A stretch of DNA of 33,077 bases, taken from the NCBI GenBank assembly GCA_024274875.1, contig JAJSAH010000005.1, positions 1-33,077 of the forward strand, in the 5' to 3' direction. Shown here piece by piece: positions 3,162 to 28,323 of this stretch. A program made the translations under genes and the position numbers. The notes beneath the pieces are model-generated. The model saw only the letters and a program-made list of their open reading frames with translations. It was not told where the DNA came from and ran no database searches. The stretch is from an archaeon (GTDB lineage Archaea > Micrarchaeota > Micrarchaeia > CAILAH01). How positions within the stretch are numbered: the stretch's first letter is position 1; the number at the start of each line of letters is the position of its first letter.

Positions 3162-3368
3162 ATGCAAGTGTTTGTTGATGGCGAAGAAATGCGCGCTGAA
3201 GCAATCTGCAGCTTAAAAAGTAAAACGAAAGTGCAGCATTTTTTAGAATGCATAGGGATGAACAGAGAATCTGTGATTGTGAAAGCGAATGGGAGGATAT
3301 TGACAGAGAATGATTGCATCAATCCAGGGGATCGGATTGATTTGATAAGGGTATCGAGCGGTGGTTAA
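3162..3368 (+). CDS. Ubiquitin-fold sulfur carrier, ThiS/MoaD/TtuB-like (SAMP-like)
   Basis: 66 aa, beta-grasp-like, ends exactly in ...RVSSGG-stop; immediately upstream of a TtuA/Ncs6-like gene. Confidence 0.85.
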   Translation: MQVFVDGEEMRAEAICSLKSKTKVQHFLECIGMNRESVIVKANGRILTENDCINPGDRIDLIRVSSGG

Positions 3369-4289
3369 TTGAAGTGCTCTCGCTGTTCATCTGATGCTGT
3401 CATATATCTAACTTATTCGAATCAATACATGTGCGCATCGCATTTGAGCGCATATGTTGAAAAGCGCATAGGAAATAATATGCGGAATTATAAAATGATC
3501 AAAGGGAGAAGACGCATAGGTATAGCGGTTTCTGGAGGAAAAGACAGCCAAGTTATGATGCATGCAATGCGCAAACTGATTGGAAAAGATAGGAGGCGAG
3601 AGCTCATTGCAATAACAGTTGATGAGGGAATACGCGGGTACAGGGATAAGAGCATAGAATGCGTGGTGAAGTATGCTGAATTGCTTGGCATTGAGCATCA
3701 CATATTCTCATTTAACGATTTTGCTGTGCAAATGGATGCGTTGATGAATAAGGGGCGAACAGACCCTTGCTCGTATTGCGGCGTATTTCGCAGATGGATT
3801 TTAAATAAGGCATCGCGCGAACTATCGCTTGACGCGCTTGCGATAGGGCATAATTTAGATGATGTTGTTCAAACGCTCCAGTTAAACATAATGCGAAATG
3901 AGCCGTTGCGCATAGCGCGTTTCACACCAAACGGCGGCGTGTTTAATGACCGCATGTTTGTGCCTCGCATAAGACCCATGTTCAACATTCCTGAGAAAGA
4001 AATAATCGTGTATGCTCTTATAAAATCCATACCTTTTCATAACGGAGAGTGCCCATACGCAGGGCATGCTCTGCGCAACCCCGTGAGAGAATTCATTAAT
4101 GATATGGAGTCAAAATATCCTGGAATAAAGTTTAGAATGCTAAACTCATACCTGTCTCTTCTCAATCATCTTAATTTTCCTGCGCTGCGCGATAATTCAA
4201 TTTTGCGATGTTCATCATGCGGTGAGCCATCATCTTCAAAAATCTGCAAGCGTTGTTCTTTTCTTAATTCCGCAATCTCTCATTCATAA
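3369..4289 (+). CDS. TtuA/Ncs6-family tRNA 2-thiolation adenylase
   Basis: PP-loop SGGKDS, N- and C-terminal zinc-ribbon cysteines (CSRCSS..., CSSCGEPSSSKICKRC), PCSYCGVFRR and GHNLDDVVQT motifs; TTG start abutting the upstream stop. Confidence 0.88.
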   Translation: MKCSRCSSDAVIYLTYSNQYMCASHLSAYVEKRIGNNMRNYKMIKGRRRIGIAVSGGKDSQVMMHAMRKLIGKDRRRELIAITVDEGIRGYRDKSIECVVKYAELLGIEHHIFSFNDFAVQMDALMNKGRTDPCSYCGVFRRWILNKASRELSLDALAIGHNLDDVVQTLQLNIMRNEPLRIARFTPNGGVFNDRMFVPRIRPMFNIPEKEIIVYALIKSIPFHNGECPYAGHALRNPVREFINDMESKYPGIKFRMLNSYLSLLNHLNFPALRDNSILRCSSCGEPSSSKICKRCSFLNSAISHS

Positions 4290-5651
4290 TAATAGATCCC
4301 TTTCTCCATTCCGCACTCTTTCAAGTTTTTTTAGAAAAGCGCGTTTAACTTTCAAATCAAGAGTATCAACAAGCTCTTTGATGTATTCTTCTCCCATTTC
4401 TCTAACCGCATCGCCTGCGTAATCGCTTAAATATTCTTGAAAAGTAAGCAATGCATTAGGAAGGCAGAATTCATGTATGTCTCCTGGTTTTGCCAAGCTC
4501 ATGAACGTTTCACCAGTTCTCCCAACTCTGTAGCATGCAGTGCAGAAGCTTGGGATCATCCCGAGAAGCATCATAGATTTTATCGTATCATCAAGGGAAC
4601 ATCGGTCAGATATGCTGAATTGCTCGAGAATATGCCTATTGCTGTATCCGCCCGGTGATGTGCGCGATGCAGCTGAGGTCTGAGACACGCCTATTCCAAA
4701 AGCTCTCAATCTCGTTTCATGGCTTTCTCGCGTGGACATGATTATGCCGGTATACGGCAAAGCTAACCTGATTATTGCAATTATTTTTAGGAGCTCGCGT
4801 TCAGAAATGCTGTAAGGCGCGCGCCTCCATTTAACGCTCTCAGCAGGTTTCCAGCGCGGCACAGAGATCGTGTGCGGCCCTACATTGAAATTGCGTTCTA
4901 ACTCATTTGCATGCATTAAAAGCGCAAGAACCTCATACCTGTAATCATACAACCCATAAAGCACTCCTAATCCTACATCATCTATGCCTGCGCTAAACGC
5001 TTCGTGGTGCGCAAACAACTGTCTTCTGTAGTTTGATTTTGGACCTGAGTGCAATATATTATATGTTGGTTCATGATATGTCTCTTGGAATAATTGATAT
5101 GTGCCTATGCCGGCTTGATTGAGCAATGCATAATCATTTTTATCTGTCGCGGCAATATTTACGTTAACTCTGCGGACTTCCCCCTTTTCTGTCTTAGTGC
5201 AATATATTGCGTTAATCACATCAATAACGTAGCCTATTGGGTTTTCTATTGGGTGTTCGCCAAACTCAATGAGCACGCGTTTGTGCCCCATCTCAATAAT
5301 TTTTTTTGTTTCTTCCTTTACTTCATCAATAGTCAGTTTTTTGCGTTTTACTTTGTTTTTCGACCTAAATCCGCAGTAAGTGCAGTTATTTATGCAATGA
5401 TTGGATGCATACAATGGAGCGAACAACACAAGCCTATTACCATAAATCTCATTTTTCACCTGCCTTGCTGAATCGAATAATTCATTCATCAACCCTCTAT
5501 CACTTATGTTAAGCAACACTCCTACCTCTTCAAGTTCGAGGCCGCTTTTTTCCATCGCTCTCTCAAACACCTTCTTTGCATCTGTTTTAGTAGCTCTTTT
5601 AGTCCTGCGCAATATCCTGCGAATTTTTTTATCATCGATGAAATATGGCAT
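4284..5651 (-). CDS. hydG: [FeFe]-hydrogenase maturase HydG (radical SAM tyrosine lyase)
   Basis: CINNCTYCGFR (CX3CX2C), IGTYQLFQETYHEPTY, GIDDVGLGVLYGLYDYRYEVLALLMHA, and a C-terminal CTACYRVGRTGETFMSLAKPGDIHEFC matching the CX2CX22C auxiliary-cluster motif that separates HydG from ThiH. Confidence 0.93.
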   Translation of the reverse strand: MPYFIDDKKIRRILRRTKRATKTDAKKVFERAMEKSGLELEEVGVLLNISDRGLMNELFDSARQVKNEIYGNRLVLFAPLYASNHCINNCTYCGFRSKNKVKRKKLTIDEVKEETKKIIEMGHKRVLIEFGEHPIENPIGYVIDVINAIYCTKTEKGEVRRVNVNIAATDKNDYALLNQAGIGTYQLFQETYHEPTYNILHSGPKSNYRRQLFAHHEAFSAGIDDVGLGVLYGLYDYRYEVLALLMHANELERNFNVGPHTISVPRWKPAESVKWRRAPYSISERELLKIIAIIRLALPYTGIIMSTRESHETRLRAFGIGVSQTSAASRTSPGGYSNRHILEQFSISDRCSLDDTIKSMMLLGMIPSFCTACYRVGRTGETFMSLAKPGDIHEFCLPNALLTFQEYLSDYAGDAVREMGEEYIKELVDTLDLKVKRAFLKKLERVRNGERDLLL

Positions 5652-5659
5652 AAAGACAC

Positions 5660-6904
5660 CTATATTGATATGTCCGTTGGCGCTCGGCCGATGGACTTGA
5701 TCACTTCTATTTTAGAATTGATTGACTTAATAAGGTTTACATCGCGCGGGTATATGTCATAGTTGCCAGCAAACTCGTCCGGAGTTGCATTGATCATGAA
5801 TGAGTTTGCGCCGCACATCATCCCTTTCCTTAACCCATCTTTGTCGATCGTTTCCAGAGCAGTTGTAACTAATATGTTTGCGTCAGGATGCGCAATTCTG
5901 GCGGTTGCGATGGTTCTGTACCATAAATCTGCATTCTGCTGTTTTGAGTTGCGCAGCGGAGTTTCAGCGTGCGGTATGAATGGGCCGATTGAGTACATAT
6001 CAGCATCAAGGTTTCGCGTCATAATAATATCATTTGCAATATCCTCAATCGTTTGGCCGGGAAGCCCGACCATAAATCCTGTTGCGCATATATAACCAAG
6101 TTTTTTTGCATATTTAATCATATGCAGGCGTTCTTTGAGGCTTCCTTTCGAGCCGGCAGGGTGCATTGAGTTGTACAAGTCCTCATTAGAAGTTTCGAAC
6201 CTTAACAGCACGCCCCTTGCTCCGGCATCATAAGCTTTTTTATAGAATGATTCAGTGCGCGTGCCGCAGCTTATGAAAATCAACGCGTTGAATCTTTTGG
6301 CTATTTCCTCAACAATCTCGCTGAACATTTCATCTGTGTAATGCTCGTCTTCGCCGGATTGGAGGACGATGGCCTTAAACCCAAGTTTTTTAATGGCATA
6401 CTCTACATTCCTGAACAGTTGGGTTTTTGACATTCTGCACCGCACCAATTTACGATTGCTTTTCCTGATTCCGCAATATTTGCAGTCGTTTATGCAATAG
6501 TTTGAGAATTCTATTATTCCGTGAACGCAGCATGAGTTTTGCTTGCGCGCGCTTCTGAGAGCATTAGCCATTGCAAATATTCTATCATCATTAGATTTGA
6601 GCATTTGAATAAGGTCTTCCTTGTTCAGCGAACGGTCCAATAATTCCTCAAGCGCAGCAGGGGGTTTGGACAACTCGGAATCTATCCGTTTCAATTCCAT
6701 AAACTTATTTTTCCATGAGCTTAGCAATCGCTCGGCTTCAATCCTGTCGATTTGCTCAACAATTAAACCACCCTGCGCATACACATAATCTCCTTCACTT
6801 AACTCAAAGAATTCATTCACTGCATTTCGCGTTTCACTAAAATACTCCAAAATTACATTTCTCCCGCGGATGCCGACAACCTTGCCGGGAATGGCATAGC
6901 ACAT
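5660..6904 (-). CDS. hydE: HypC/HupF-like domain fused to HydE-like radical SAM protein
   Basis: N-terminus MCYAIPGKVVGIRGRNVILEYF...EGDYVYAQGGLIVEQIDRIEAERLL is HypC-like. It is followed by IIEFSNYCINDCKYCGIRKSN, IVLQSGEDEHYTDEM, TGFMVGLPGQTIEDIANDI, YSIGPFIPHAETPL, MCGANSFMINATP, all of the HydE type. 8 nt upstream of hydG. Confidence 0.9.
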   Translation of the reverse strand: MCYAIPGKVVGIRGRNVILEYFSETRNAVNEFFELSEGDYVYAQGGLIVEQIDRIEAERLLSSWKNKFMELKRIDSELSKPPAALEELLDRSLNKEDLIQMLKSNDDRIFAMANALRSARKQNSCCVHGIIEFSNYCINDCKYCGIRKSNRKLVRCRMSKTQLFRNVEYAIKKLGFKAIVLQSGEDEHYTDEMFSEIVEEIAKRFNALIFISCGTRTESFYKKAYDAGARGVLLRFETSNEDLYNSMHPAGSKGSLKERLHMIKYAKKLGYICATGFMVGLPGQTIEDIANDIIMTRNLDADMYSIGPFIPHAETPLRNSKQQNADLWYRTIATARIAHPDANILVTTALETIDKDGLRKGMMCGANSFMINATPDEFAGNYDIYPRDVNLIKSINSKIEVIKSIGRAPTDISI

Positions 6905-13543: not shown

Positions 13544-14956
13544 TTAAAACCCAAAATTAATTATGTTTATTCCTTTTATGCCGGTTTTCTCAACCAACCT
13601 GTTCAATGATTCTTTGTTCCTGTGCGTGAATTTCATTTGACTACGGACTTTGCTTGGATCAAGATAACCCCATCGTTTAAGCGCTGCTTTTAATTCCTTA
13701 TGCGTTTTTGCGTATTTTGGCAGAGGTATGCCTTTGCTGATTGCTTCCGCTGCTTGAAGCATAGATTTTGCGCCTGCGCGAGTGCCTCCAGGATGACCGT
13801 GAACACCGCCGCCAGCTTGCATAATCACATCTCTACCATGCACAGCAGCAACCCCATCGCATAAGCCCGCATTCAGACCGCCCGATGCTACGGGAAACAC
13901 GGTCTTTATCTTCTTATTCCATTCGTAATCAAGCTTTCCCATATAATACATGCCCTTAATTTTTTGCTCATAGATGATATCGCGCAAAAATCTTACATGA
14001 ACTGGAGAACCTTCCATCTTGCCAACTCCAGTTCCAACATGCAATTCATCAACTCCAAACAACCTATAGAATTTCTCAAATATGCCGAATGAAATTCCAT
14101 AATTGCCTCTTTCAAGAGCGCCGTATCCTGCCCTATGCGCGTGTATGAACATTTTCCTTCTCTTTAATTCATCTATGACATCCTGCAACGCGCCGAATCC
14201 TATTATGTAAACATCGATCATTGCCATTACCCAGCCGTGATCGTGCAAGTAATCTATCCTGTCCATCATATCGCATAATCTTGCGGTGATATTTGGAGAG
14301 TACAGAACCTTTCTTCCAGTGCGCTTCTCAACTCTATCTATGATTTTAAGCATTTCATTTACTCTCTGTTTAAACCTGCAGAATTTTTGGTCGACAAGGT
14401 TCTCATCGTCTTTCACGAAATCTATGCCTCCCATATATGATTCATACGCAACCTTTGCAAACTGCTTTGGGTTCAGCCCAACTTTTGGTTTTACTATTGT
14501 CCCAACATGAGGTCTTCGAGATTTAAGCGTACCAACATACTTTCTTAAACCCTCCATGCCGTGCAAAGGACCTTCAAATTTTGATTGAAACCTGCGCGGA
14601 AAAGTTATATCTAAAATTCGCATCTCATACAGCTCTTTAAGACCGAACAGATTTCCAAATACTGATGCGCTTAATTGAAGGACATTCTCAATTTCAAAAT
14701 GTTCAAGGGGATATGCAATGTATATGAACCCTGCGTTTTCCGCAATCTTATCAATCCTGAACACACGCGCGCGCAATTTCCAGACTTCCTTGTTCAAAGT
14801 TTTAAGCTTGGTCCAAGTGCCTATGCTTGATTCAGCCGCAATTGCTTCAGCAATCTTTTCAATCCTTTCCCTGCCACGCGCCCAAATGAGCATAATAATA
14901 TCATTTCTTGCGGGAGAATATTTTTCATCTAGGTATGAATAACCTCCGTACGCCAT
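13544..14956 (-). CDS. rbcL: RuBisCO large-chain, form III-like
   Basis: ESSIGTWTKL, GTIVKPKVGL, GGIDFVKDDEN (carbamylation-Lys motif), GVGKMEG (loop 6 Lys), SGGLNAGL, GGGVHGHPGGTRAGAKS. Track start 15028; ATG at 14956 (MAYGGYSYLDEKYSPARNDIIML) is more consistent. Confidence 0.93.
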   Translation of the reverse strand: MAYGGYSYLDEKYSPARNDIIMLIWARGRERIEKIAEAIAAESSIGTWTKLKTLNKEVWKLRARVFRIDKIAENAGFIYIAYPLEHFEIENVLQLSASVFGNLFGLKELYEMRILDITFPRRFQSKFEGPLHGMEGLRKYVGTLKSRRPHVGTIVKPKVGLNPKQFAKVAYESYMGGIDFVKDDENLVDQKFCRFKQRVNEMLKIIDRVEKRTGRKVLYSPNITARLCDMMDRIDYLHDHGWVMAMIDVYIIGFGALQDVIDELKRRKMFIHAHRAGYGALERGNYGISFGIFEKFYRLFGVDELHVGTGVGKMEGSPVHVRFLRDIIYEQKIKGMYYMGKLDYEWNKKIKTVFPVASGGLNAGLCDGVAAVHGRDVIMQAGGGVHGHPGGTRAGAKSMLQAAEAISKGIPLPKYAKTHKELKAALKRWGYLDPSKVRSQMKFTHRNKESLNRLVEKTGIKGINIINFGF

Positions 14957-14994
14957 AAAATGCACCAAGCATAAGTCCGCAACAAGATTTATAT

Positions 14995-15135
14995 TTATAT
15001 GTTCCTTCCTCTCATGCATCTCACGCAAATTCCATCAACTTGATCGTTCACGCATGTTGGCAAACCGCATATTTTGCAGGTTATGCAAGGTTTGCATACC
15101 TTGCCGCACACATGGCATATGCCGGCTTTTTCCAT
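14995..15135 (-). CDS. Small Cys-rich zinc-binding protein
   Basis: MEKAGICHVCGKVCKPCITCKICGLPTCVNDQVDGICVRCMRGRNI (46 aa, multiple CX2C); lies between the AAA-wHTH and RuBisCO genes on the same strand. Confidence 0.6.
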   Translation of the reverse strand: MEKAGICHVCGKVCKPCITCKICGLPTCVNDQVDGICVRCMRGRNI

Positions 15136-24125: not shown

Positions 24126-25823
24126 TCAACCAATCCTTTTGAATTTTCTTTCTAGATCTCCCCAACTCATCCGCACCACGGTCGGCCTGCCATGAGGACA
24201 TGTATATGGATTTCTGCATAATTTAAGGTTTTCTATAATTGATTTCATTTCAGCATGCGATAGAATATCTCCGCCTTTGACGGCGGCTCTGCATGCCTTA
24301 GTGGCAACAACTGAATCCATTCTATCTATATCATGTTTTCCATACGTTTTTATCTCATCGATAATATCTATGATCACTTTCGGGTTAGATGCTTTACCGA
24401 ACACTGCAGGCACAGATACTACTGCATACTCAAACTTGCCAAACCTTTCAATGTCGAACCCATACCTTTCCAGCAAGTTAGCGTGTTTTGAAATAAGTTC
24501 ATCTTGCTCAGCGCTAACAGCGATTATGAAGGGCTTGATCAGTTCGTTCTTAGATACAGCATTTTTTGATAACTGATCCATAAATTTTTCATATAGAATT
24601 CTCTCTTGCGCTGCGTGTTGATCAATCAAAACAATCCCTGAATTATCATATCCTACTAGATAAGTCTTGTTTACTTGCCCCAACAGCAATATGTTGTTGA
24701 ATTTCGAGGTCTCATGCCCAGCATTTATCTTCTTGCAGACAGGTTTGACAGTAATATCGCTAAAATCCAACTGCACTCCTTTTTCAATGGGATATGCATG
24801 CGCGCTTTTTGCAAGTTTTGCGTCAGCATCCACGGACACAAAATTGTCTTTGGTTATAATGCTATCTCTTATTGCATTTATTATGCATTCCTTAACAGAA
24901 TGCTCATTTCTGAACAATATCTCTTCTTTAGATGGATGCACATTCACATCAATCATTTTGGGATCAATATTTATGTAGAGCACGAACACAGGATTGCGCT
25001 CCAAAAACAATTTATCAGCATATCCTTCTTCAACGGACTTGCTAACCAAGTTATTCTTCACGAGCCTGCCATTAACGAACAGTACTTGATAATCCCTGGT
25101 TTTGCGCGTGTATCCTGGTTTTGATATAAAGCCCAAGATTGCTACGCCCCCTGCTGAATGTTTAGTTTCAACGACATTGCGCGCAATCTCTTTTCCGAAC
25201 GCGTGGTATATCTTATTAACTAGGGTTGTTTTTGGTGAGTTAAACGCAAGATTTCCGTCTTTGTAGAGCATAAAATGTATGTTTTGGCTAGCTAGAGAAT
25301 ACCTTGTAATAAGCGCAAGTATGCTCTGAAATTCTGCATCATCAGATTTCATGAATTTCAAACGTGCTGGAAGTTTGCTTAACAGATTGCGTATCTCAAC
25401 AACAGTGCCTCTGTTAATATCGCTTTTGCTTATTTGAATAGGGTTTCCCTGAGAATCAAACACTGCTTTATATCCATTTGATTGAACAATCAGATCGCTA
25501 ACTGCTGAGATGCTGGCGAGCGCCTCTCCCCTGAACCCTAAAGTATTGATGCGCAGTAGGTCATCTTCAACCTTAAGTTTGCTTGTTGTATGCCGCTTCG
25601 CGCATAATTCAAGATCATCTTTGCTCATTCCTCTGCCGTTGTCCGCAACGCGTATAAGAAGTTTGCCGCCCTTATCAATATGCACTTTTATTTCTTCAGC
25701 ACCCGCATCGATGCTATTCTCTATTAGTTCTTTAACCACTGATTTAGGAGATGTGATAACTTCTCCGGCAGCGATTTTGTCGCGCACTTTTTCAGGAATA
25801 GCGATTATACTCATTTCACGCAC
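24126..25823 (-). CDS. mutL: DNA mismatch repair protein MutL (endonuclease-type)
   Basis: KIAAGEVITSPKSVVKELIENSIDAGA, DNGRGM, GFRGEALASI; C-terminal DQHAAQERILYE matches DQHA(X)2E(X)4E; CPHGRPT. ATG at 25814 is an alternative start. Confidence 0.96.
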   Translation of the reverse strand: MREMSIIAIPEKVRDKIAAGEVITSPKSVVKELIENSIDAGAEEIKVHIDKGGKLLIRVADNGRGMSKDDLELCAKRHTTSKLKVEDDLLRINTLGFRGEALASISAVSDLIVQSNGYKAVFDSQGNPIQISKSDINRGTVVEIRNLLSKLPARLKFMKSDDAEFQSILALITRYSLASQNIHFMLYKDGNLAFNSPKTTLVNKIYHAFGKEIARNVVETKHSAGGVAILGFISKPGYTRKTRDYQVLFVNGRLVKNNLVSKSVEEGYADKLFLERNPVFVLYINIDPKMIDVNVHPSKEEILFRNEHSVKECIINAIRDSIITKDNFVSVDADAKLAKSAHAYPIEKGVQLDFSDITVKPVCKKINAGHETSKFNNILLLGQVNKTYLVGYDNSGIVLIDQHAAQERILYEKFMDQLSKNAVSKNELIKPFIIAVSAEQDELISKHANLLERYGFDIERFGKFEYAVVSVPAVFGKASNPKVIIDIIDEIKTYGKHDIDRMDSVVATKACRAAVKGGDILSHAEMKSIIENLKLCRNPYTCPHGRPTVVRMSWGDLERKFKRIG

Positions 25824-25824
25824 C

Positions 25825-28323
25825 TCACACAGACCAAATATTAATACTGGTCTGTTTATCTTCCTCTATGCTTTTACCGCCTTTTGTTAATCTGCTCAGA
25901 GTTTCCCTATGCAAGAAGTCGTTTTGTTCAAGCATTTTTGAAATTTTGCTGGCGTTTTGCACAACTTTGTTAGGCAGTCCAGCAATTTTTGCGACATGAA
26001 CTCCATAACTTTTGTCAGTGCCGCCTTCGCACAGTTTATGCATAAACACAACTCCATTCTCCTCTTCTTTCACTGCAACATTGTAATTCTTAACAAAACC
26101 ATATTTAAGTGCAATCAGGTTGAGCAGATGGTAATGCGTAGCAAACAGAGTTTTGCACTTAATGTTTTCCGCGATGTATTCTACTATCGCCCACGCTATT
26201 GCCATACCATCATAGGTAGAGGTTCCCCTGCCGATTTCATCCAAGATTACTAAAGAGTTCTCTGTTGCATTATTGAGTATGTTGGCGGTTTCGGTCATTT
26301 CCATCATGAATGTTGATTGCCCGCGCCAAATATCATCTCTTGCACCAACCCTTGTAAATATGCGGTCGAACACTGCAAGGTTTGCTGATTTGGCAGGCAC
26401 ATAACATCCCATCTGTGCCATTATGCATATGAGCGCAACCTGTCTCATAATTGTTGATTTGCCAGCCATATTTGGACCTGTTATTATGGCTATTCTGTTA
26501 TTGCAGTCCATGCGAACATCATTAGGGATAAAATTAACCACAGCGCTCTCAACCACAGGATGTCTTCCCTCCTTTATATCAAGCACTCCGTCGTTGTTCA
26601 GTGATGGCCTGCAATAACCGCAATTGTGCGCAAGTTCTGCAAAACACATGTAAACATCAAGCTCAGCAATTTTATCTGAAATGCTGTGCAATTTATCAAC
26701 ATGTTCTTTTGCACGCTTAACCACCTGCGCATATATCTCTGATTCGAGCTGCCTGATCTTTTCTTCTGAATTAAGCAACGTTACCTCTATCTCCTTAAGC
26801 TCTGGAGAAATATACCTTTCCGTTGCAACCTGCGTTTGTTTGCGCACATATGCCTTCGGTACCATTCCTGCCTTGGATTTTGGGACTTCTATGAAATACC
26901 CTATAATTTTATTATATCTCACTTTAAGAGTTCTTATGCCGGTTTTTTCTCTTTCCTTCTGTTCAAATTCAGTCAACCATTTTTTTGAATTGTCAACCAA
27001 TTCTTTGATCCTGTCAAGCTCCTCACTGTATCCTTGCTTTATGACACCGCCGTCTCTAACAACCGATTTAGCATTTTCATCTATGCTCTCGCGTATTAAA
27101 TTCTCAATCTGTTCAGCGGTGTCCATAATTGAAAAATCATTGTAGAATGCGGTTTTAAGGCTTAAATCGCTAATGATTTTTTTAAGTTTCCTGCAATTCT
27201 CCAATGACTGCTTTAACATGAGCAGTTCTCTCGGTAGCACGGTTTCATAGGATATGCGCGCAGATATACGCTGCACATCACCAATATGTTTAAGCACATT
27301 CTTAATCTCCTCAATTGCCATTGGATTACTAGTGACCTCCCCAACATTATCGAGCCGTTCATTAATCTGTTTAACATCTGCAAGCGGTGACAGCATAAAT
27401 TTTTTGATTAGCCTGTTTCCCATAGGCGTGACAACTCCTTTGAATACGCTCAACAAAGTGCCTCTTTCAGAACCGTCAACCTGGTTTCTCACCAAATCAA
27501 GATTTCTTATGGTAATTGCATCAATCAGCATATTGTTGGATGCAGCATAGTATGATATCTTGCCTGCGCCCAGTGCAATTTTCCCGAGCAAAGTGTAATC
27601 GAGGTATGATAGCATTCCGGAGATTGCTTTGCGCGATAATTCATGCTCATCCAAACCATATGATGAAAACGACCTAACGCCAAACATTTTGTTCAATAAG
27701 TATGAGCCGTTTTCTTCATCGAATTTGTATGATTCAACTTCACTTATTTTAAACCCAAACTGCTTGCTGAGTTTTCCAACCCATTCATACCCAGGCAGAT
27801 TTCCTTTAGGAACGATGATTTCAGACGGTTTATATTTTTCAATTTCTGTTTCGATGCTATTCTCATCTGTTTCGGTAGTATGCATCTCCCCAGTTGAAAC
27901 ATCGCATGCGCACAACCCTATGCCGCGATTATCAGAATAAAAGCTCATTATGTAATTGTTTGATTTCTCATCTATCATATGCGGTTCGATCACCGTGCCT
28001 GGAGTGACTATTCTCACAACGCCTCTTTTAACCAATCCCTTTGCCTTTTTTGGATCCTCCAACTGTTCTACGATAACAACTTTATGCCCTTTATCAACGA
28101 GTTTTTTTAGGTATGTATCGAGCGCATGGTATGGTATGCCTGCAAGCGGGGCTTTTTTATCGCCTTTGCCTCTGTTTGTCAGCACAATATTAAGATCATT
28201 CGCGACGGTTTTCGCATCATCATAAAATGTCTCGTAGAAATCTCCCATTCTGAACAATACGATGCAGTCATCATACTTGCGTTTTACATCCCAATACTGC
28301 CTCATGGCTGGAGTAAGCTCCAT
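25825..28323 (-). CDS. mutS: DNA mismatch repair protein MutS
   Basis: FRMGDFYETFYDDA mismatch-recognition motif; Walker A GPNMAGKSTIMRQVAL; DEIGRGTSTYDGMAIAWA; FATHYH. Confidence 0.97.
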   Translation of the reverse strand: MELTPAMRQYWDVKRKYDDCIVLFRMGDFYETFYDDAKTVANDLNIVLTNRGKGDKKAPLAGIPYHALDTYLKKLVDKGHKVVIVEQLEDPKKAKGLVKRGVVRIVTPGTVIEPHMIDEKSNNYIMSFYSDNRGIGLCACDVSTGEMHTTETDENSIETEIEKYKPSEIIVPKGNLPGYEWVGKLSKQFGFKISEVESYKFDEENGSYLLNKMFGVRSFSSYGLDEHELSRKAISGMLSYLDYTLLGKIALGAGKISYYAASNNMLIDAITIRNLDLVRNQVDGSERGTLLSVFKGVVTPMGNRLIKKFMLSPLADVKQINERLDNVGEVTSNPMAIEEIKNVLKHIGDVQRISARISYETVLPRELLMLKQSLENCRKLKKIISDLSLKTAFYNDFSIMDTAEQIENLIRESIDENAKSVVRDGGVIKQGYSEELDRIKELVDNSKKWLTEFEQKEREKTGIRTLKVRYNKIIGYFIEVPKSKAGMVPKAYVRKQTQVATERYISPELKEIEVTLLNSEEKIRQLESEIYAQVVKRAKEHVDKLHSISDKIAELDVYMCFAELAHNCGYCRPSLNNDGVLDIKEGRHPVVESAVVNFIPNDVRMDCNNRIAIITGPNMAGKSTIMRQVALICIMAQMGCYVPAKSANLAVFDRIFTRVGARDDIWRGQSTFMMEMTETANILNNATENSLVILDEIGRGTSTYDGMAIAWAIVEYIAENIKCKTLFATHYHLLNLIALKYGFVKNYNVAVKEEENGVVFMHKLCEGGTDKSYGVHVAKIAGLPNKVVQNASKISKMLEQNDFLHRETLSRLTKGGKSIEEDKQTSINIWSV

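Follow-up and report, generated by a model that had tools for sequence, protein, structure and literature searches.

Genomes point to a HypC-HydE fusion and HydG as the likely core of a hybrid [NiFe] hydrogenase maturation pathway

What would an archaeon make with HydE and HydG if it has no [FeFe] hydrogenase to mature? Two maturation systems have been described for hydrogenases that bear CO and CN ligands, HypABCDEF for the [NiFe] enzymes and HydEFG for the [FeFe] enzymes, and they are treated as separate. The DNA analyzed here (33,077 nucleotides [nt] of contig JAJSAH010000005.1, assembly GCA_024274875.1; called the window) holds parts of both, namely, a gene for a HypC-HydE fusion and, directly downstream, hydG. 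The window is contig C4 of archaeal genome G000 (833 kb, 24 contigs, 89.7% complete). An earlier note on this DNA had called the pair archaeal, had supposed that the genome probably encodes an [FeFe] hydrogenase elsewhere or that another enzyme uses an organometallic product of the pair, and had proposed HydE and HydG phylogenies. We consider it likely that HydG and the HypC-HydE fusion form the core of a hybrid [NiFe] hydrogenase maturation pathway, replacing HypD, HypE, and HypF. The basis of this reading is the domain architecture, genome-wide co-occurrence, gene neighborhoods, the absence of HypD and HypF, clade-specific residues, and a confident fold. The features of the pair are as follows.

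5660..6904, minus strand: HypC-HydE fusion gene, 414 amino acids (aa), with PF01455 and TIGR03956 matches
6707..6904, minus strand: HypC domain, residues 1-66, matching the Protein Data Bank (PDB) HypC structures 2z1c and 3vyr
6899..6901, minus strand: HypC Cys2, Cys in 84/84 aligned fusion HypC domains
6773..6775, minus strand: HypC Gln44, at the classical His position, Gln in 84/84 fusions
6521..6532, minus strand: fused-HydE motif C125-C126-x-H128, fixed among fusions
6473..6496, minus strand: HydE radical S-adenosylmethionine (SAM) [4Fe-4S] motif C137x3C141x2C144, invariant in alignments A1 and A3
4284..5651, minus strand: hydG, 455 aa, with a TIGR03955 match of 520 bits, 8 nt downstream of the fusion
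5373..5396, minus strand: HydG radical-SAM [4Fe-4S] motif C86x3C90x2C93
4872..4874, minus strand: HydG H260, the GPHTIS histidine, aligned with the GPHT histidine and proposed as a dangler-iron ligand; we take its counterpart to be His265 in Thermoanaerobacter italicus numbering
4464..4544, minus strand: HydG auxiliary-cluster motif C370-X2-C373-X22-C396

Both open reading frames (ORFs) were found at these coordinates and on this strand, separated by positions 5652-5659, and the scanned ORFs of the window yielded neither HydF nor HydA. These results and the family matches agree with the earlier description of hydG as lying 8 nt downstream of the fusion, as carrying the HydG-specific C-terminal CX2CX22C motif, and as unaccompanied in the window by hydF or an [FeFe]-hydrogenase catalytic subunit. 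The HydG match exceeded the TIGR03955 cut-off of 312 bits, and the protein resembles T. italicus HydG 4WCX (E value, 1.8e-156). In the fusion, residues 1-63 matched HypC (PF01455) with 35.9 bits against a cut-off of 28.5, and residues 91-389 matched HydE (TIGR03956) with 249.9 bits, just below the curated cut-off of 254.6. An AlphaFold2 model built with 53 family members gave a mean predicted local distance difference test (pLDDT) score of 91.8 and a predicted template modeling (pTM) score of 0.92. The nearest solved folds were those of Thermotoga maritima HydE, with best superpositions at 1.8 to 1.9 Å, and some of the matching entries have complex B, which HydG produces, or an Fe(CO)2CN species bound.

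The residues of the HypC domain were then compared with those of the wider family. In characterized HypC and HybG, Cys2 carries the Fe(CN)2CO unit (PMC8692609, PMC11565642). The fusion has this N-terminal Cys2 within MC-x-x-x-PG; at the conserved His of the GD-x-V-x-x-H-x-GF region, it has Gln. Stand-alone HypC proteins of G009 and G013, genomes that lack HypD, also have Gln, and the HypD-partnered HypC of G035 and the PDB HypCs have His. In these sequences, the change from His to Gln tracks the absence of HypD; the alignment was numbered by an E. coli HypC sequence, and this conclusion rests on the G035 and PDB sequences.

The HydE domain also carries signature residues. C125-C126-x-H128 sits just ahead of the first barrel strand in fused HydEs, although one of the two motifs used to retrieve the fusion family itself contained C-C-x-H. 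HydEs of the [FeFe] type have Arg at the His position, and the HydEs of G073 and G075 retain the second Cys and the His. In the HydE tree, the HydF-linked HydEs, including that of T. maritima, formed one clade (support, 1.0), and the fused HydEs formed a separate clade (0.95); the unfused, [NiFe]-associated HydEs of G073 and G075, genomes without HydA, were sister to the fused clade (0.98). Two apparently unfused HydEs inside the fusion clade (L138 and L169) were read as truncated fusions, L138 being cut by the end of its locus and L169 being assumed to be likewise. The HydG tree, in contrast, intermixed [FeFe] and [NiFe] contexts with no split, and HydG was ruled out as the discriminating enzyme. 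The two phylogenies proposed earlier gave different answers, with only that of HydE separating fused from HydF-linked proteins. The G073 and G075 loci (L193 and L194), in which an unfused HydE accompanies HydG, [NiFe] genes are present, and HydA, HydF, and HypD are absent, may represent a pre-fusion intermediate.

Next, the hydrogenase and maturase content of G000 was examined. HydA (PF02906) had no match anywhere in the 833 kb of this ~90% complete genome, HydF had no match above the cut-off, HypD was not found, and HypF gave only partial matches below the cut-off. A standard HydA/HydF locus was looked for elsewhere in G000, and none was found. A hidden [FeFe] hydrogenase in G000 was rejected on the basis of the HydA search, and the [FeFe] hydrogenase that the earlier note had thought probable is further disfavored by the absence of HydA from 46 of 50 other fusion genomes. 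What G000 does encode, on contig C14, is a [NiFe] large subunit in which each of the four Cys ligands is present (motifs RICGTC and DPCMSC); it is closest to the alpha subunits of sulfhydrogenases (Group 3b) and is accompanied by genes for a small subunit and a protease-like protein. We infer that this enzyme is the target of the window pair. Support was found for the other option raised earlier, in which a different enzyme receives the organometallic product, and a [NiFe] hydrogenase can be named as that enzyme with fair confidence.

Family matches were then counted in 50 further fusion-bearing genomes from many phyla. HydG was present above the cut-off in 49 of these and a [NiFe] large subunit above the cut-off in 45, HydA in 4 and HydF in 3; HypD was found in none and HypF above the cut-off in none. 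Genomes of the class to which G000 belongs provide a control. The 11 fusion genomes in this comparison all have [NiFe] genes, and none has HydA or HydF; three class-mates with an unfused HydE beside HydF (G126, G288, and G098) all have HydA, and none has a [NiFe] gene (Fisher P = 0.003 for fused versus unfused). Two genomes, G322 and G337, hold both systems, with an unfused HydE by HydF and the fusion by [NiFe] genes. Because these genomes carry both HydEs but a single HydG, they suggest that the HydG synthon is shared between the systems and that HydE decides its destination. In two other genomes the components look as if they had been lost together: G106 (L147) has broken HydE and HydG pieces, and G303 (L204) has a HydG split by a stop, with no [NiFe] large subunit found in either.

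The spread and gene neighborhoods of the fusion were determined by scanning 85,462 species genomes with the motifs MCYAIPG[KR] and N[SA]CCVH[AG]I, which gave 191 related stretches; the best 80, ranked by match to the fusion, formed the neighborhood sample. The fusion is full length in all 80, but the sample is uninformative on the frequency of unfused relatives because the motif-based scan kept the best 80 by fusion match. Carriers include Micrarchaeota, other DPANN archaea, Omnitrophota, Margulisbacteria, Saganbacteria, Scalindua, other Planctomycetes, Elusimicrobia, Lentisphaerae, and others. The pair does occur in an archaeal genome, as first described, but "archaeal" is too narrow a label, since bacteria make up the majority of the carriers found.

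HydG is encoded in 55 of the 80 loci, in 52 of them no more than 500 nt from the fusion. A [NiFe] large subunit lies within ~6 kb in 28 loci, on the same strand in 27 of these and mostly across a gap of 450 to 740 nt, often with a protease and HypA in between. Other neighbors recur as well: a HycI-type protease (32/80), a small subunit (28/80), a diaphorase subunit (26/80), an Fe-S subunit (24/80), HypA (21/80), and Mrp-type membrane subunits (10/80). At least one of large subunit, small subunit, HycI protease, and HypA is present in 42 loci. Chance adjacency would be ~1% per locus, assuming a genome of ~1.8 Mb with one or two large-subunit genes; the observed 28/80 is far above chance even at 3% per locus, with the reservation that genomes related to one another do not count as independent samples. 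In G346 the gene order is HypB-HypA-fusion, and the fusion occupies the place of HypC.

The window locus itself appears authentic. The genes flanking the pair (psmA, SBDS, Rrp4, Rrp41, Rrp42, and L37ae) and the match of its GC content and third-position GC content (GC3) to the genome argue against contamination, and the pair is not an assembly artifact, because three class-mates of G000 share it at 42 to 45% identity. Contamination as the origin of the pair was ruled out by the flanks, the composition, and these homologues in other metagenome-assembled genomes (MAGs), in line with the earlier judgment that bacterial contamination was unlikely. G049, of the same class, has a contig identical to JACCLL010000101.1 (Candidatus Micrarchaeota isolate Sv246). 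In G049, a [NiFe] operon with protease and HypA sits between NcsA and psmA-SBDS-Rrp4-Rrp41-Rrp42. The interval from NcsA to the psmA-SBDS-exosome genes is thus taken up in G049 by the [NiFe] operon and in the window by hydG and the fusion gene. Elsewhere in the window, a small ThiS/SAMP-like sulfur carrier (3162-3368, plus strand) lies directly upstream of the NcsA-like tRNA thiolase gene (3369-4289), positions 13544-15028 (minus strand) encode the large subunit of an archaeal RuBisCO (PF00016, PF02788), and a MutL and MutS pair, possibly of bacterial acquisition in this archaeal genome, lies at 24126-28323 (minus strand).

How might such a pathway work? Characterized HydG converts tyrosine to p-cresol, CO, and CN- and builds Fe(CO)2(CN)Cys (PMC6212873). 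HydE binds this complex, as solved structures show. The chemistry, the CO-for-CN exchange, and both transfers (first to HypC, then to the large subunit) are what we infer from the genomes, in the following steps: (i) HydG would cleave tyrosine to CO and CN-, which would be assembled at its dangler iron into the Fe(CO)2(CN)(Cys) synthon, as in characterized HydG; (ii) the HydE domain would receive the HydG complex and remodel it towards Fe(CN)2CO by replacing one CO with a second CN-, probably employing the extra Cys-Cys-x-His; (iii) the fused HypC domain would take up the unit on Cys2 and, like HypC proteins elsewhere, load it into the apo large subunit; and (iv) insertion of nickel by HypA and HypB would follow, with a HycI-type protease closing the site. 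It is reasonably probable that this amounts to a third biosynthetic route, in which HydG provides tyrosine-derived CO and CN-, the HypC-HydE fusion carries out the conversion to Fe(CN)2CO and its delivery to the [NiFe] hydrogenase, and HypD, HypE, and HypF are replaced in full across many uncultured phyla of bacteria and archaea.

Several observations weigh against this proposal. All genomes compared are MAGs, the search passed over HypE, the window pair is not adjacent to the [NiFe] genes of G000, and the known HydG synthon is Fe(CO)2(CN), not Fe(CN)2CO. Five of the 50 carriers (G303, G327, G332, G339, and G347) have no clear [NiFe] large subunit. Conversely, three members of the same family as G000 carry [NiFe] large subunits without HydG, HypD, or HypF, those of G001 and G002 being 69% identical to that of G000 with the four Cys retained:

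G001:C32, [NiFe] large subunit without a known CO/CN maturation route
G002:C48, [NiFe] large subunit without a known CO/CN maturation route
G004:C44, [NiFe] large subunit without a known CO/CN maturation route

G005, G006, G009, G013, and G018 are likewise [NiFe] positive without HydG, HypD, and HypF. A Micrarchaeota [NiFe] gene can therefore occur with neither route, and our confidence in the hybrid pathway is accordingly lower than co-occurrence alone would give. G001 and G002 may have another source of the cofactor, or their assemblies may have missed the genes. By the [NiFe] genes of G009, G013, and G018 (L045, L046, and L047) there is an EamA/DMT-like transporter, joined in G009 and G013 by the Gln-type stand-alone HypC.

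These points bear unequally on the alternatives. That the pair serves an ordinary [FeFe] system, making the diiron unit for a HydA encoded elsewhere with the HypC domain incidental, is very improbable and already largely refuted: HydG is normal, with all of its cluster motifs, and HydA does occur in 4 of the 50 fusion genomes, but G000 has neither HydA nor HydF, 46 and 47 of the others lack HydA and HydF, respectively, the HydF-linked HydE of G322 and G337 is a different, unfused paralogue, and the fusions adjoin [NiFe] genes. The pair might instead supply only part of the cofactor, for instance its CO ligand or a precursor containing Fe-CO, with cyanides coming from an undetected or diverged HypE-like activity. 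The two CO and one CN of the known HydG synthon would suit such a role, the CO source in anaerobic [NiFe] maturation is unknown (PMC12134894), and the searches of the fusion genomes did not cover HypE. However, none of the fusion genomes tested has a match above the cut-off for HypF, the enzyme that produces the thiocarboxamide used by HypE, and none has HypD, the scaffold that receives the cyanide from HypE; we regard partial supply as unlikely.

It is decidedly improbable that the organometallic or radical product of the pair is meant for a non-hydrogenase enzyme and that the [NiFe] link reflects a shared anaerobic lifestyle. The distance of the window pair from [NiFe] genes, the five carriers without a clear large subunit, and the relatives with [NiFe] genes and no pair would all fit, yet as a chaperone the HypC domain is specific to [NiFe] enzymes, the neighboring large-subunit genes share the strand of the fusion in all but one of 28 cases, often with protease and HypA between, and HypD and HypF are missing throughout. 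There is scarcely any likelihood that in this archaeon the two genes are nonfunctional, whether as relics or as recent gains. G001 and G002 do retain the same [NiFe] enzyme without the pair, and G106 has broken genes and G303 a stop-interrupted HydG; in the window, however, both genes have open reading frames with every catalytic motif intact and a composition like that of the genome, and decay in those other genomes coincides with the absence of [NiFe] genes.

The hybrid pathway can be set beside known systems. With the HydEFG system it shares a HydG with both clusters (CX3CX2C and CX2CX22C) and a HydE fold like that of T. maritima; it differs in that nearly all fusion carriers lack HydF and HydA and that the fusion HydE is joined to HypC, forms its own clade, and has C-C-x-H where the [FeFe] type has Arg at the His position. 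With the HypA-HypF system it shares the large subunit, the HycI protease, HypA (also HypB in G346), and a HypC domain with Cys2, but HypD and HypF are absent in 50/50 genomes and the fusion HypC has Gln and is joined to HydE. The component proteins belong to known families, and the implied pathway is a member of neither known system. HypX, the aerobic CO source in [NiFe] maturation, is likewise an add-on enzyme supplying the CO ligand, but it uses formyl-tetrahydrofolate and works with HypCDEF (PMC12134894), whereas in the hybrid pathway CO and CN- would both come from a radical-SAM tyrosine lyase, with HypD and HypF gone.

Group 3b [NiFe] hydrogenase loci in reduced genomes were also reported for the candidate phyla radiation (CPR), where hyd1 and hyd2 occur with a partly HypC-like family, "fam002," without maturation analysis (PMC7304191). 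The hyd2 small subunit is short (mean, 164 aa; PMC7304191), and that of G001, a relative of the window genome, has 165 aa. That paper does not mention HydE, HypD, or a maturation route (PMC7304191). In the literature searched, which excluded preprints and most subscription journals, no HypC-HydE fusion and no role of HydG in [NiFe] maturation was found.

If the hybrid pathway is real, one of the oldest metal catalysts in biology would be made by a new means, using parts from the unrelated [FeFe] line. The pathway would also identify where the CO ligand of the [NiFe] hydrogenase comes from under anaerobic conditions in these lineages, and if HydG feeds [NiFe] maturation, the question of the CO source becomes testable by isotope labeling. 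The annotation of these genomes would be corrected, as HydE and HydG, held to be [FeFe] markers, would mark a [NiFe] hydrogenase in them. Both hydrogenase worlds would share a synthon, with HydE as the branch point.

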